This document shows, one piece after another, positions 6,521 through 62,868 of a DNA stretch of 64,000 nt (within the stretch, counting starts at the first letter, position 1; every line of letters begins with the position of its first letter). The notes beneath the pieces were generated by a model that was not told the DNA's origin, ran no database searches, and was given only the letters and a program-made list of their open reading frames with translations. The DNA comes from Candidatus Woesearchaeota archaeon (GTDB lineage: Archaea > Nanobdellota > Nanobdellia > Woesearchaeales > JACPIF01), in assembly GCA_016188215.1 (NCBI GenBank), contig JACPIF010000004.1, positions 1 through 64,000 of the forward strand, written 5' to 3'. Position numbers and translations under genes: made by a program.

Positions 6521-8998
6521 CTAGAAGAAACTAGCCAATTTGCTCTGCTCGCGGTTCTCAAGCAGCACATCTTTAGTATAGCCGAACACGTTGAGGATGC
6601 GCTCAATGGAAGGGATAACCTGGTGCCTTATGTAATAGTCTGCATCATAATCCTTCTCATTCACCTCATCAGGCAGCCTGGCCTTGTCGCGCAGCTTCTC
6701 CTTGCTGTTATGTGTATCTTCTGCAATAACGAACTGGATGTTTGAACCTGGACGGATACTGATGCCTGCAGCGAGCATTTTCTGGGCAACTGCAACATGA
6801 GGAGATACAGATTCATAGGTGTCAATGCGCTTCTGCAATTGCGTGTTAAGGATAACCTTCTCAATCGGCACTTTCTTATCCTTCAAATCTTTTATCACTG
6901 CCTTGACATATCTTACAGCTTCTGCAGGATTCCTGTCTTTCAGGATTATGTTGAGCACAGTCTCCTGCACTTCCCTTGCAATCAGCGATGAGTTCTTGCG
7001 TATAGCCTCAAACCCCTTGATTTTGATGCTGCCTTTTTCAGAGAGCAATGCATAGCGCTTCTTCGCGCCAATGTCGCCTGCCTTTGCTGATACGAAAATG
7101 CCCGCAGGATAGTAGCCTTCAAACTCAAGCTCCATGACTCCAGGCAGCTCAATATTGACTGCAGCGCAGAATTGCAGCGCATCCTCCTTTGTCCTGCCAT
7201 CAAGGGCAAGGAATACTGAATCTGTATCAGAATAAATCACCTTGAAGCCTGCCTGTGCAGCCTTTCCGATGACCTGCTGGATGTAAAACCTGCCCCAGGC
7301 AGTTGTTGCTTCTGCTGATTCCATGGAATACCAGCGGGCATAGGGAAAGCCAAGGTAGCCGTAGAATGCGTTGGCCAGGAGCTTGAGGCTGTTTGACTGA
7401 GCTTCCAGGAAAGGGGATTTTCCTGAGGCTGCCAGGGCTGCCTTGAGCCTTAATCTTCTGGTTATGAGCTCTTCAATGATTGCCGGGATGAAGCCTTTGC
7501 GCCTGGTGCAGAACCATGTTGCCTTGCGCTTGCCATCCAGCGGCGTAAGTTTAGCCAAGCCCTCGCAGCAGTCGCAGCGAACTGTTGCAGGAGAAATGTT
7601 ATGAGAGGAAATGAGGCTTGGGTACAGGCTCCTGAAGTCAAACACGATAATGTCATTGTATAATCCTGGCTCTGGCTCGTAGACAAAACCGCCTGTGTAA
7701 CTCATCTGCCTCCTGAAATCAATGGTGCTGTCATCAGGCTTGTTGGGGTTCAGTTCATTGAATTCAGACGATCTGGCCAGCAAGTACCATTCAACCAGCT
7801 GGGAATAGCCCATGCGGTTGATGTCATGCAGCGGGAGGCCGACTATCTTCACCATCTCGCTGAGGTTTGGCAGCATTTTCTGGGTTAGCTTGAATGTAAG
7901 CAGGGCATCCTGCAAGTTGTACTGGCAAAATGCTTCCAGCTTGTCTGTCCCATCATCCCATGCAGATGCAAGCTGCTCAATATTGGCAGCGTGCTTGCCT
8001 TCACCCAATAATTCAAGGGCAACTTTCTGCAGAGTGAATGACTCTGCTTCCATAGTCCTGCCCAATATCTTGGCGATATACCTGAAGATATCAATGTGAG
8101 TTAATCCTGTTATGCGGGCGCTGCGGTTCATGCCTTTATCCAGGTCAATCTCTGAGCTGTCCATGCCCAAATCCAGCCTTATGCCCAAAGCCTTTGCGCG
8201 CGCCATGAGATAAGGAAGGTCAAAGCCGTCTGAATAATAGCCTGCAAGGATATCAGGGGCGTATGATTTTACATGGTGCACAAACCGGTCAATAAGCTGC
8301 GCTTCAGAATCAACGAATTCTATGCTCTCATCATCTGTCCTGAACTTTTTCCAGGTTATGACTTTCTTGAGAGTGTCCCCGTACAGGGCAAGCATGACGA
8401 TGGGATGCTTTTCAGCCACCACATGCTTTCCCAGTGGATTATAGGTCTCAATGTCAAAGGCAAGTATCTTAAGGTCTTGTGCTGAATGCTCTGATGATGG
8501 CTTGACTTCAGCTGCCTTGAAACACGGGATTCCTGAAGAGTCCTGGCTCTCGATAAACTCTCCTTTAGCTTCTGTCAAGCTCAATGGAATTATTTTCTTG
8601 TCAATCAAATAACGGCGGGCAAAAAGGATGTCATACTCGTTGATTGACGTAACCATGTCCCATTGCCTTACAATGTCGCGCAGGAGCGGGACGTCGCTCG
8701 GCAGGTTAAGGAATACTTTTAATGCGACTATCGCCTCTCCCAGGAAATTCTTCTCGTGCTGCTCAACTTTAGCAACCTTTACAACCTGCTCTCCTTTTGG
8801 TATCTCCAGGCGCTGCAGCTTTCCCTTAACTTCCATGATATTTTCATATTTAGGAATTACCCAAAAGTATGGCCTGAACGTATCGTCAATTATGCAGACG
8901 TGCCTGCCATCTATTGTTTTTGCAAACAAGTGAATGACCGGCAGGCTGTTCTCTATGCGGTATGTTACATCCAGTGGATAAAATTTGAGGGTTTGCAT
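6521..8998 (-). CDS. polB: family B DNA polymerase
   Basis: Exonuclease and polymerase motifs: FDIETYNP, DFRSLYPSLI, NAFYGYLGFPYARWYS, YSDTDSVF. Start likely MQTLKFYPLDV at 8998 rather than the ORF-track start at 9139. Confidence 0.95.
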   Translation of the reverse strand: MQTLKFYPLDVTYRIENSLPVIHLFAKTIDGRHVCIIDDTFRPYFWVIPKYENIMEVKGKLQRLEIPKGEQVVKVAKVEQHEKNFLGEAIVALKVFLNLPSDVPLLRDIVRQWDMVTSINEYDILFARRYLIDKKIIPLSLTEAKGEFIESQDSSGIPCFKAAEVKPSSEHSAQDLKILAFDIETYNPLGKHVVAEKHPIVMLALYGDTLKKVITWKKFRTDDESIEFVDSEAQLIDRFVHHVKSYAPDILAGYYSDGFDLPYLMARAKALGIRLDLGMDSSEIDLDKGMNRSARITGLTHIDIFRYIAKILGRTMEAESFTLQKVALELLGEGKHAANIEQLASAWDDGTDKLEAFCQYNLQDALLTFKLTQKMLPNLSEMVKIVGLPLHDINRMGYSQLVEWYLLARSSEFNELNPNKPDDSTIDFRRQMSYTGGFVYEPEPGLYNDIIVFDFRSLYPSLISSHNISPATVRCDCCEGLAKLTPLDGKRKATWFCTRRKGFIPAIIEELITRRLRLKAALAASGKSPFLEAQSNSLKLLANAFYGYLGFPYARWYSMESAEATTAWGRFYIQQVIGKAAQAGFKVIYSDTDSVFLALDGRTKEDALQFCAAVNIELPGVMELEFEGYYPAGIFVSAKAGDIGAKKRYALLSEKGSIKIKGFEAIRKNSSLIAREVQETVLNIILKDRNPAEAVRYVKAVIKDLKDKKVPIEKVILNTQLQKRIDTYESVSPHVAVAQKMLAAGISIRPGSNIQFVIAEDTHNSKEKLRDKARLPDEVNEKDYDADYYIRHQVIPSIERILNVFGYTKDVLLENREQSKLASFF

Positions 8999-58228: not shown

Positions 58229-58942
58229 TTATTTGCTGGACCTTTTCATTGTCTTATAACCATAGTACGAAAGAAGGGCCAATATAATTAAAACAAGCAC
58301 ATATACTACCAACTTCTTTACATTAATTCCACCAGAGCAGTCATAATCATTTCCGCCGCTGCAATCAGGATCACATAACCCGTCTGCTGCTTTATCACAC
58401 ACTCCATCTGCCTGCCCGGACCTGCAATCTGAAGAGCATGCTATATAATTCTCGCCTTTGTCGCATACCCTGTTGCCACAGGTGCAATCGCTTGGACAGG
58501 TGTCTATAGATTCAATGCCTTCGCATACCTTGTTCTCGTTGCACACTGAGAATGAGCTTACGTCCACTTCAAACATTATCTCCCTACCCTTCAGGATTAA
58601 TACGCTTTTTGCGTTTGGGTAGTAAGGGAGAACCAGGTCTACCACAGTTGAGCTTGGCTGACTAGCCGCTGCTCCGCCTGGAGCGCGAAAAATCGCGACT
58701 TCTACGTTAAAAGTTGTCTCGTAAAGAACCTCGCCATTAAATGAAGTGATTCTGGCAGTATACAGCTTGCCATCTGTTTTACTCATTGGCTCTGCTGGAA
58801 CAAGCTCTATATTCTTGAGCGTGAATTTTCCTGAGTCAAAGTCAAGGGCAATCGAATACGACACTGTTTCGGCTTTGACCAATGATATCAATGCGAAAAT
58901 TGCTAGCATCACTAAGAAAATTTTCATTTGAGTTTTCCCCAT
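58229..58942 (-). CDS. secreted membrane-anchored Cys-rich protein
   Basis: Signal peptide; CGNRVCDKGENYIACSSDC; C-terminal TM LVVYVLVLIILALLSYYGYKTMKR. Confidence 0.65.
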   Translation of the reverse strand: MGKTQMKIFLVMLAIFALISLVKAETVSYSIALDFDSGKFTLKNIELVPAEPMSKTDGKLYTARITSFNGEVLYETTFNVEVAIFRAPGGAAASQPSSTVVDLVLPYYPNAKSVLILKGREIMFEVDVSSFSVCNENKVCEGIESIDTCPSDCTCGNRVCDKGENYIACSSDCRSGQADGVCDKAADGLCDPDCSGGNDYDCSGGINVKKLVVYVLVLIILALLSYYGYKTMKRSSK

Positions 58943-58960: not shown

Positions 58961-61870
58961 TTATCCCGCGTCTCCACAAAATCTGCGGCCCCTGGTTCCC
59001 TGTGGTTCAATCCCGCTGGGAGATTCGTTAGTGCAACTCGTTGAAGAGAGTCTGGCTGTAATATTTATATCCTCTGATTTCATAATAAAAGAGCAGGTTT
59101 GATTCATTGGATTCTCACACGGGCTTGCCATCCAGCGGAAAAACCTTGAGCCGTCAAAAGCTTCGGCCTTTATCGAGAACCTTGATGATTCTGGCCAATT
59201 TGTTTTTCCCATCTTGCAGTTATAGCCGCAGATTTCCTTCTCCAGAGTAGAGTTGTATAATATGAACTTGCCGTCGCCAGTACCCTCTTTTGTTACGGTT
59301 ACTGTAAATGTCCTGGGCTTATTTAGCTCAACTTTCAGCCCTGGGCCTGGCGCGTGGGTTGCAGTGAAAGCATCAATCTTCTTCTGGATCTCGCGCTCGT
59401 TCACCGGCCCGAAATCAATCCCAAGGTCTACGCTGACCATCAAAGATAGTTTTGCAGGCCGTATGTTCTTATGCACAAATGCGCAGCCGCCATCACTCCA
59501 GTCGCTTCCGTCAGGGAACAGGCCGAGCGCAGGATAGCTTGCCACGGGATGCTTGTAATATGTTGTTCCAGGCATATCTTTAATGCCGGTGAAGTAATGC
59601 ACTCCGCGGACACCTTCAAGGTCGCCCCATTTCCTTTTGGCTTCTTCCACGTTAGTGGCGCAGTTCGGCAAGTCATAGTATTGCATATAATCATTCCCAC
59701 CATATTCCACGTATTCGTCCCCAAGGCTGCCTATTGCATGGCCGAGCTCATGAACCAGTGTCCTTCCTACAAATTCCTGCCCTCTTATAGGATCCTGCAA
59801 TGAAAGAAATACTTTTCCCCCAGAAGCGTCTGAAGTTGGGAAGTTGGCAAAAGACCTGAATAGCTCCACTGATGAGACTATGACAGTGTCCCTGCTGCAT
59901 GTCCTGACAAACCTCTCGTAATCGTCATAATCGGGGACAGTAAGATTGCCCACGCCTTCAAACCCTGAAGGCTCCTCGTGATGCTTATAGTCCGGAGCCA
60001 AGACCATCCAAACATTAAATTTCTGCTTGTTTTCCTTGAACGGAGAAAGGCTGAACACGCCAAGCTTATTTTGCGATATGCTTTCAAAATCCATGAGCAG
60101 GTTTATTCCCTCCTTCAGCACATTGTAATCCTTAAAACCATCGCCTACAAAGACTATGTCCAGCTTGTCTTTCGGATCGCCATTGACCCAGACTGGCTTG
60201 CAGGCTGGCTCGCCTATGCATTTGCGCACCTGTGAATTGCATGTCCTTCCTTCTCCGCAGTCACTGTCGGAACAGCAGTCAAATTTCTGGCATTTGTGAT
60301 TGTTGACAGTGCCGCATGCGCATTGCACTGGAACGCAGCCCTGTTCAGAGCATGCCTTGTCATTCGGGCATTCTGAATCGCCACTGCAGCCTGCAGTGAA
60401 TTTTGCAATCACTGAATGAGCATTCTGAATCTTAATAGTGCATTCATTCTGAGTGCCGGCGCACGAGCCGCTCCAGCTTTCAAATAACCATCCCTTTGCA
60501 GGCTCAGCTATTAGCCTGACTGTATCTCCAGGAGCATACATCGCAGAGCAATTGTTTCCGCAATCAATCCTGCCGTCTGCAGTCTCCACCCTGCCATTCC
60601 CGACTGTCCCTGCTGAAAGCCTTGGCTCATGGCCCCCCAGCTTGCCGAAAGATATGCGCATCATCCCCCTTTCAGTATTGTATACCACCCAGAGAACAAT
60701 GTCGCCATAAGCTTCGTCAATCGGGCCGGATGCGCCAACTTTATTCCAGTTTTCCAGCACCAACTTCCTCGTCCTTCCATCGGGAAACATGCCCCAGATG
60801 TTCCAGTCAATCGGTACAATCGGAAGGACTTTCCATGTGCCGGAAGAGCTGCTGTACTGCCATGTGGCATTTGGATACAGGATAAGTTTTGTAGGAGGAA
60901 CTTTCAATCTTACAGCTTCATCCCATGCATTCACTGAAGAGCCGCCCTTGGCAGAAGACAGCTCCATCGTGTATATGCGCCAGATGCCGAAAAGGTTGGC
61001 ATCAAGGAGATTCTCTTTCTGGGGCTCGTCAGAAGTGTCATTGAGCACTTTCAGGATTTCATCCTTTACCTTGTCTATGGTTTCATTCTCGGTAAGGTTG
61101 CTGGCGGCTGTTTGATTTATTGGAGCGATTGGAGTGAGGTTTATGCTGGTGGCATTATCCGCCCCTATCTTTGGCTCGCCGGTTATGTTGCTCACATTAA
61201 GGATTGTTATTGGGATATCCTCAGGAGCGCTCTCATTCGGGGGGCTTATGATGATTAACTTTGTTATGTTTTCAATGTCAGTCTCATTGCTGCCATTCAG
61301 GATCATCTTGATAAACCCGGGACCAATCATTGTCCCGTTGAAGCCAGGGCCAATCTCAACTTTTATGTATCCCGGGCCAATAGTTACATTCAAGCCAGGG
61401 CCGAGCTCAGGCGCCACAAATCCCGGGCCAATGGTTGCCTTCTTGTACCCTTCGCCAATCTCAGGCCTTGTGTAATTATCTGTAGTTGGTGCCACAAATC
61501 CCGGGCCAACCGTAGCTTTCTCATAGCCGGGGCCAATGGTTGCATTAACGTACCCCGCGCCGATAGTAGGCGATGTGTAATTGCCATCAGATTTTGGGGC
61601 TATGTAGCCTTCGCCTGCAGTAGGAGACTTATAGCTGTTGTCTGAAGTGGGTGATGTGTAACTATTGTCTGAAGTTGGGGATTTATAGCTGCTGTCTGAG
61701 GTCGGTGAAATATAACTGCCGTCTGAAGCAGGCGAGCTGTAGGATGAGGTCTCGTTGGCAGTTGCGTAGCCAGTCAATGACGGCGGGGCAAGCAGAACGA
61801 TGAGGACCAGCAGGAAAGCAGGTATACAAATATTCCACGCGTCTGAAGTTATGATTTTATGGATATTCAT
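58961..61870 (-). CDS. large secreted protein with M64-like peptidase domain and N-terminal 9-aa repeats
   Basis: TLVHELGHAIGSLGDEYVEYGG; KLDIVFVGDGFKDYNVL; two basket-like Cys repeat domains; N-terminal TM/signal. Confidence 0.8.
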   Translation of the reverse strand: MNIHKIITSDAWNICIPAFLLVLIVLLAPPSLTGYATANETSSYSSPASDGSYISPTSDSSYKSPTSDNSYTSPTSDNSYKSPTAGEGYIAPKSDGNYTSPTIGAGYVNATIGPGYEKATVGPGFVAPTTDNYTRPEIGEGYKKATIGPGFVAPELGPGLNVTIGPGYIKVEIGPGFNGTMIGPGFIKMILNGSNETDIENITKLIIISPPNESAPEDIPITILNVSNITGEPKIGADNATSINLTPIAPINQTAASNLTENETIDKVKDEILKVLNDTSDEPQKENLLDANLFGIWRIYTMELSSAKGGSSVNAWDEAVRLKVPPTKLILYPNATWQYSSSSGTWKVLPIVPIDWNIWGMFPDGRTRKLVLENWNKVGASGPIDEAYGDIVLWVVYNTERGMMRISFGKLGGHEPRLSAGTVGNGRVETADGRIDCGNNCSAMYAPGDTVRLIAEPAKGWLFESWSGSCAGTQNECTIKIQNAHSVIAKFTAGCSGDSECPNDKACSEQGCVPVQCACGTVNNHKCQKFDCCSDSDCGEGRTCNSQVRKCIGEPACKPVWVNGDPKDKLDIVFVGDGFKDYNVLKEGINLLMDFESISQNKLGVFSLSPFKENKQKFNVWMVLAPDYKHHEEPSGFEGVGNLTVPDYDDYERFVRTCSRDTVIVSSVELFRSFANFPTSDASGGKVFLSLQDPIRGQEFVGRTLVHELGHAIGSLGDEYVEYGGNDYMQYYDLPNCATNVEEAKRKWGDLEGVRGVHYFTGIKDMPGTTYYKHPVASYPALGLFPDGSDWSDGGCAFVHKNIRPAKLSLMVSVDLGIDFGPVNEREIQKKIDAFTATHAPGPGLKVELNKPRTFTVTVTKEGTGDGKFILYNSTLEKEICGYNCKMGKTNWPESSRFSIKAEAFDGSRFFRWMASPCENPMNQTCSFIMKSEDINITARLSSTSCTNESPSGIEPQGTRGRRFCGDAG

Positions 61871-62868
61871 TGCAGATCGTCATTTGTATGGCCAAACTTC
61901 ATTTGGATGATGCCGGGGTTTGCAACAGTAGGAGGCTCTACGCGGTAGATGACCCAGAAAAAGTCTATTCCGCCAAATGGCGAATACTCTATCGGGCCGT
62001 CAGCCTCTGCCTTGTTCCAGTTATGCAGTACTACTTTCTTGGCAGGGCCATATGATTCAGAGCCCCACTTTTTCCAATCATCTTCTTCAATGTCCTTAAC
62101 TTCCCACGTGCCTTTTGAGTCTCCAAATTTCCAGGTTGCGTCCTTGTTTAGCTCAAGAAGCCTGAAGGATATATCACTTGCGCCCCGACCGCCTATATCG
62201 TAAAAAATAGTCTGGGAATAGATGCGCCAGTCATTGACTAAATCAGGATCTATATTGCCTTTCCCGGAAACCTGCTCCAGTGGTTTTTCAGCTGGCTGCT
62301 CAACTATCTCAAATGAGTCAACCATGCGCTGCACTTCCTTCTGAAAGTTCTGGAACTCCTCCTCATCAGCTGCAAATGAAAGGATGTATGCATTGCCGTT
62401 CCTTACAGTCCATACCTGTAAGACCCGGAGCTTGTTTCCCTGAGGGCCTGTTGAGCTGTACACCACTTTGCGGCCAGGGCTGCTGCTCAGCTGCACTTCT
62501 GCAGGATTAGATACTTCAATATCTGGCAATGCTTCTTTCAATAGGGCGAGCGCACTTGCAGTATATGCATCAAGGGATATTAACGGATCTGAAAGCTCAT
62601 CCACCACTATGTTGAAACTTTCAGCAAAAGTGTCATTAGACTTTAAAGGAGGTACAAAAACTGCAGCAATGCCTGCCTCATCTGCCTTTACAAGCCAATC
62701 TTTCGGATATTGCATCTGTATCTTATAGTACGAATTCTGGTATACGGTGAATTCTGTTTCTGCAGGTTTCGCTTCATTTGAGTTCTGGCTAGAAGATGGA
62801 GCCTGAGGCGTGCAGCCTAATAGTATGATAAGAAGCAATAGGATTACTGGTGGTCTATTACCTTTCAA
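61867..62868 (-). CDS. lipoprotein with PsbP-like domain and a C-terminal domain shared with 58961-61870
   Basis: LLLLIILLGCTPQ lipobox; YKIQMQYPKDWLVKADEAGIAAVFV; WRIYSQ...GTWEV...NWNKAEADGPI. Confidence 0.7.
   Translation of the reverse strand: MKGNRPPVILLLLIILLGCTPQAPSSSQNSNEAKPAETEFTVYQNSYYKIQMQYPKDWLVKADEAGIAAVFVPPLKSNDTFAESFNIVVDELSDPLISLDAYTASALALLKEALPDIEVSNPAEVQLSSSPGRKVVYSSTGPQGNKLRVLQVWTVRNGNAYILSFAADEEEFQNFQKEVQRMVDSFEIVEQPAEKPLEQVSGKGNIDPDLVNDWRIYSQTIFYDIGGRGASDISFRLLELNKDATWKFGDSKGTWEVKDIEEDDWKKWGSESYGPAKKVVLHNWNKAEADGPIEYSPFGGIDFFWVIYRVEPPTVANPGIIQMKFGHTNDDLQ

Follow-up and report, generated by a model that had tools for sequence, protein, structure and literature searches.

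Two copies of an uncatalogued, probably lipocalin-like domain and a recurrent C-terminal ending in an M64 peptidase operon of a woesearchaeal genome

The bacterial M64 peptidase IgAse/ThomasA of Thomasclavelia ramosa carries an array of all-beta accessory domains and a C-terminal sortase attachment site (PMC12402451, PMC12237041). Here we describe a three-gene operon in a 64,000-nucleotide stretch of Candidatus Woesearchaeota DNA (contig JACPIF010000004.1, positions 1 to 64,000; hereafter the window), which comes from a genome of 1.11 Mb in 13 contigs. Gene 1 encodes a lipoprotein-like protein, gene 2 an exported M64 metallopeptidase and gene 3 an exported protein; genes 1 and 2 share a domain, and a short conserved tag closes gene 2. 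Like IgAse/ThomasA (M64, igalysins), gene 2 combines an M64 domain bearing HExxH and an Asp ligand with accessory domains and a putative C-terminal signal (PMC12402451, PMC12237041). However, the bacterial anchor is a sortase motif, whereas gene 2 has a soluble tag of the form RGRRF..D.G; a role in host immunity is not implied for gene 2, and the consulted parts of the two reports mention no lipocalin-like domain in IgAse/ThomasA.

The shared domain and the tag can each be compared with described systems. The Bacteroides lipocalin-like proteins 4gzv, 4iab and 4i95 are like the domain in their eight-stranded barrel (predicted in our case), their length and a Trp at the start of strand A, with Foldseek probabilities of 0.98-1.00, but they share only 8-11% identity with it (E >= 6.5e-3, TM-score ~0.45), and the motifs DW..W, YGP.RK, GPIEE and DFIWVIY are conserved within the domain family. 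GH43_C (PF16369), the 'C-terminal lipocalin-like domain' of Pfam and our best hint there, is likewise a lipocalin-like accessory domain of an enzyme, although a different one; its weak profile similarity to 3 of 24 family members (best E 0.0094) is not significant, stays below the gathering cut-off and does not extend to either window copy. The tag, in turn, recalls the archaeosortase and sortase signals PGF-CTERM and LPXTG: it is short, conserved and C-terminal, and is shared by otherwise unrelated exported proteins. In those systems the motif is followed by a transmembrane segment and a basic end, whereas the tag itself forms the last ~10 residues; as no hydrophobic segment lies behind it, it is not of the sortase/archaeosortase type.

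The shared domain and its predicted fold

A preliminary description of the window had proposed that a domain of ~115 residues is common to two adjacent genes overlapping by four nucleotides (ATGA). Both genes were verified as open reading frames, with the ATG of gene 2 at 61870-61868 and the TGA of gene 1 at 61869-61867, and the peptides quoted in that description match the translations exactly. The homology was confirmed as well: a search of the window's own genome with copy 1 returns only itself and copy 2 (60668-60982, 44% identity, E 1.2e-15), and the Smith-Waterman score between the copies is 189 against 30.8 +/- 5.6 for shuffled sequences (maximum 60, n=2000; z = 28), which rules out chance similarity. 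The range first given, 60625-62245, does span the end of copy 2 to the start of copy 1, but the copies proper extend as listed here with the other features of the operon.

61867-62868, minus strand: gene 1 (P0001, 333 residues), lipoprotein-like, PsbP-like domain (Pfam) then predicted lipocalin-like domain; lipobox LLGC by inspection.
62284-62778, minus strand: PsbP-like domain, residues 31-195 of gene 1, kept in relatives; PsbP_2 (PF18933), E 3e-13, 50.6 bits against a cut-off of 27; PsbP (PF01789), E 1.7e-7, 31.9 bits against 23.5.
61888-62250, minus strand: lipocalin-like domain copy 1, by own-genome profile (E 3.8e-50), AlphaFold2 model and Foldseek.
58961-61870, minus strand: gene 2 (P0002, 969 residues), exported M64 metallopeptidase that combines low-complexity repeats, a lipocalin-like domain, an InlB-type repeat, a Cys-rich part and the C-terminal tag.
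61301-61741, minus strand: low-complexity repeats (SPTSDxSYx / TIGPGFVxP), residues ~44-190 of gene 2, read from the translation; similar repeats in relatives.
60635-61003 (start approximate), minus strand: lipocalin-like domain copy 2, a diverged copy in which 6 residues are inserted (profile E 2.8e-33; AlphaFold2 strand order as in copy 1).
60386-60634, minus strand: InlB-B type repeat with two Cys pairs (PF18998 Flg_new_2, E 8.8e-14).
59231-60205, minus strand: M64 metallopeptidase domain, HELGHAIGSLGDEY, with zinc ligands and catalytic E (PF09471, E 5.3e-10, 39.4 bits against a cut-off of 26).
59024-59338, minus strand: extra InlB-like domain with two Cys pairs between peptidase and tag, not present in aligned relatives (alignment A4); Flg_new_2 has 2 stretches in gene 2.
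58961-59005, minus strand: C-terminal tag PQGTRGRRFCGDAG and stop codon, from the tag census and the ends of relatives.
58229-58942, minus strand: gene 3 (P0003, 237 residues), exported, with a Cys-rich part and a C-terminal transmembrane segment; no match in Pfam, NCBIfam or PHROG.

That both proteins are secreted, as had been suggested, agrees with a signal peptide- or lipobox-like start in each by inspection (gene 1: MKGNRPPVILLLLIILLGC). Scans with Pfam and NCBIfam gave no model at cut-off on either domain copy, in keeping with the expected lack of a curated family, and a profile search of the PDB with the domain returned nothing significant.

An AlphaFold2 model of copy 1, built from a 24-sequence alignment (A3), predicts eight main strands in an antiparallel barrel together with a short helix, at a predicted local distance difference test score (pLDDT) of 92.9 and a predicted TM-score of 0.86. 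The top Foldseek ranks in the PDB are almost all lipocalin-like, beginning with 4gzv, 4iab (annotated as 'putative monosaccharide binding protein') and 4i95 and continuing with classical lipocalins and retinoic acid-binding protein, at probabilities of 0.96-1.00; the viral library is headed by a 'Lipocalin-like domain-containing protein' (TM-score 0.50, probability 1.00). The calycin-style G-x-W at strand A is near-invariant, with Gly and Trp conserved to 90% or more in alignment A1, and Trp in A3; strand A starts with FGIW in copy 2 and VNDW in copy 1. The model of copy 2 keeps the order of strands and helix seen in copy 1 (block-mean pLDDT 52-90), which supports the same predicted fold for both copies. 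What had looked like an undescribed domain is thus an uncatalogued family but, judging from the models and the concordant GH43_C hint, probably one of known fold, divergent and lipocalin-like, rather than a new fold.

Spread of the domain and the peptidase operon

The domain was found in 10 of 371 genomes sampled from the phylum and in 7 of 193 near-relative genomes, the window's own being included in both counts. The proposed search of other archaea did recover it in other DPANN archaea: named relatives are mostly 'Candidatus Woesearchaeota' metagenome-assembled genomes from groundwater, with some labelled Micrarchaeota or Aenigmatarchaeota. It is not confined to archaea, however, as three bacterial contigs (L037, L041 and L042) carry it standing alone; mis-binned archaeal DNA is an unlikely source of these, the neighbouring genes being GroEL-, DnaE- and acetolactate synthase-like by inspection. 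One of these bacterial proteins, L037, ends in VVGPGYVPPSSG, which resembles the SPTSDxSYx / GPGF repeats of gene 2. We rejected a viral or plasmid origin: neither viral contigs nor plasmids yielded a relative of the domain, and the viral contigs gave no tag either.

Four contexts recur: behind PsbP-like lipoproteins, alone after an export signal, together with InlB repeats, and once or twice before M64. At five loci (L019, L021 and L031-L033) the domain gene adjoins a giant InlB-repeat protein, and M64 is not found in that place. In the tree, three sets of copies tend to group apart from one another and across genera: the lipoprotein copies of M64 operons, the first M64 copies and the second M64 copies. 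The window's two copies are not firmly placed. Because copies group by operon position across genera where the tree resolves, the duplications look older than the genera; the idea of a recent event in the window's genome is not supported, and the duplication looks old and common to related genera.

The full operon of lipoprotein, M64 peptidase and gene 3 is present in G184, G125, G075, G243, G259 and L034/G437 as well as in the window. As the M64-gene 3 pair is kept in many relatives without the domain, gene 3 looks like a partner that archaeal M64 peptidases have in general. In the order M64 is common, occurring in 56 of 353 genomes, but most of its M64 genes lack the domain.

Gene 2 runs from a membrane-type start through repeats, shared domain, InlB-type repeat, Cys-rich stretch, M64 and a second InlB-like domain to its conserved end. 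The M64 motif is intact, with HExxH, Asp as third ligand (H, H, D) and the catalytic E. At position 9 of the zinc motif gene 2 has S, against G in the published motif; we dropped this as a sign of a dead enzyme, since the position varies among archaeal M64 proteins. In one relative (L040:283-2448, minus strand) the zinc motif reads HEMGQ, having lost its second His, and that protein may be inactive. The window's genome also holds a second, shorter M64 gene outside the window (G000:C2:207942-208364, minus strand; open frame of 390 residues). Literature searches on archaeal M64 and on lipocalin-like domains in Woesearchaeota gave nothing relevant, and no description of the tag was found in the literature open to search.

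The C-terminal tag

The stronger find lies outside the range first described, and merits specialist attention. The gene 2 peptidase ends in QGTRGRRFCGDAG, with the tag in the form PQGTRGRRFCGDAG; the last 15 residues with the tag read PQGTRGRRFIEDAG. An ending of the form RG[RK][RK]F..D.G (RGRRFIEDAG type) is shared by four or more proteins that otherwise differ. Besides the window, the loci that carry it are L016, L017, L018, L067, L069, L072, L040 and L085. Orthologues end in QPQGGRGRRFIEDSG, EPQGTRGRRFIEDQG, EPQGTRGRRFREDAG and AAQGGRGRRFVEDAG, whilst carriers that are unrelated or built differently comprise an InlB protein with the domain (L018), an exported protein of 479 residues without it (L072) and a 73-residue membrane peptide with two copies of the tag (L069). 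This two-tag peptide (L069:693-914, minus strand) adjoins, divergently, a gene resembling signal peptidase.

At the DNA level, a search of the order's 353 genomes gave 6 places for RGRRFI..D.G followed by a stop codon, and a search of the phylum sample's 371 genomes gave 6 for a pattern left free at the I position. Every match decodes to the motif, through differing synonymous codons, and the reversed-pattern control gave 0 matches for both. The phylum sample holds five genomes with the tag, and all of them (5/5) fall within the ten that bear the domain. The hypergeometric probability (~4e-9 by hand) overstates this co-occurrence, as the genomes are related and several of them have the tag on the domain gene or in its operon; in G206, tag and domain are on different contigs. 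With the reversed control empty and no tag beyond domain-bearing genomes, a chance origin is ruled out. The tag is also absent from 22 domain-less M64 proteins with readable ends.

Its terminal position is strict. In the window protein, the ~105 residues of the second InlB-like domain are inserted behind the peptidase and yet leave the tag in last place. A split M64 gene (L067:3623-6406, plus strand; L015:6386-9219, minus strand) is seen in G243 and G184. The break falls within the InlB repeat and separates the first loop's two Cys; an export leader has been acquired by the downstream half, and a tag closes each half. The G243 halves end in GGRGKKFVEDAG and GGRGRRFIEDAG, those of G184 in GARRGRFFMRHSW and GARRGHFFMRRAW, the latter pair being, by position and presence on both halves, a putative variant equivalent to the main tag. 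In G525 (L030) the gene is unsplit, and each of the two Cys loops of one InlB repeat contains an in-frame, internal tag-like copy, AAQARRGRFFMRYAW or AAQARRGQFFTRYAW (L030:8718-8786 and 8919-8987; DNA repeats 77% identical), and beside gene 3 at the contig end its peptidase terminates in GGRGRRFVEDAG.

Position after the insertion, presence on both split halves, the internal G525 copies and absence from the 22 domain-less M64 proteins together suggest that the tag looks functional. We tentatively raise the possibility that RG[RK][RK]F..D.G is an undescribed archaeal signal for sorting, attachment or processing, one that exported proteins of organisms carrying the domain would use without a transmembrane segment, and for which the lipocalin-like lipoprotein is perhaps the receptor or part of the same machinery. 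Could the basic stretch instead be a plain dibasic cleavage site (RGRR/F), at which an Arg-specific or kexin-like peptidase trims off six terminal residues or separates fused precursors? RGRR, RGKK and ARRGR do resemble R-x-K/R-R processing sites, and the internal copies of G525 lie where G243 and G184 split the gene. No processing enzyme was identified, however, and the residues F..D.G, for which a plain cleavage site has no need, are as well conserved as the basic stretch; we regard this alternative as doubtful.

A putative surface proteolysis system

With moderate confidence, we propose that DPANN archaea possess a three-gene operon for surface proteolysis, that a divergent secreted lipocalin-like barrel is its binding module, and that the tag attaches or marks gene 2. 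Gene 1 would display the barrel on a lipid-anchored PsbP-like protein, and gene 2 has one or two copies ahead of its M64 zinc peptidase; the barrel would probably keep a ligand, glycan, substrate or cell-surface component near the peptidase, whose M64 domain would do the cutting. Gene 3 may be the membrane partner that keeps the peptidase in place there. As for the tag, it most likely serves to fix the exported gene 2 chain to the envelope or to earmark it for processing. The analysis shows that the copies are homologous, what fold they are predicted to have, how the operon is built and in which contexts the domain stands, and that the tag recurs in a strictly terminal position; ligand binding, surface location, catalysis and every function of the tag are what we infer. 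A surface-attached proteolytic system is the most likely form of such an operon; the bacterial IgAse, with its accessory domains and C-terminal sortase site, is an analogue (PMC12402451, PMC12237041).

Several observations speak against this proposal. Foldseek E-values are no better than 6.5e-3, with TM-scores of 0.40-0.50 (~0.45) and root-mean-square deviations of 6-7 Å, so that structural kinship to lipocalins is likely rather than proven; window copy 1 carries N in place of the calycin Gly; the M64 part, beyond the first ~270 residues, is modelled at pLDDT <50 from an alignment of only 5 sequences; and two M64 relatives with the domain (G259 and L034/G437) have no tag, from which it follows that the domain does not need it.

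Alternatively, the domain might help M64 to fold or might inhibit it, acting in cis or from the adjoining lipoprotein as chaperone or inhibitor instead of as a ligand-binding barrel. Beta-barrel metallopeptidase inhibitors of lipocalin-like shape exist, and in M64 operons the domain lipoprotein lies directly upstream of a peptidase with further copies. We nevertheless consider this unlikely, given the domain genes beside giant InlB-repeat proteins without M64, the solitary bacterial copies and the lack of the domain in most M64 genes of the order. It is more improbable still that the tag is merely the ancestral C-terminus of one M64 lineage, with no separate function: most carriers are indeed orthologous M64 proteins, but the tag also ends the non-M64 proteins L018, L072 and L069, stays terminal past the window insertion and on both G243 halves, is written in differing codons and is missing from the 22 domain-less M64 proteins.

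DPANN archaea are small and often host-dependent, and little is known of the machinery on their surface. The presence of a lipocalin-like barrel both on a lipoprotein and on a peptidase offers a testable idea for the capture and cutting of external proteins; if the tag is a real signal, it would provide a handle on how DPANN archaea attach or process the proteins they export.

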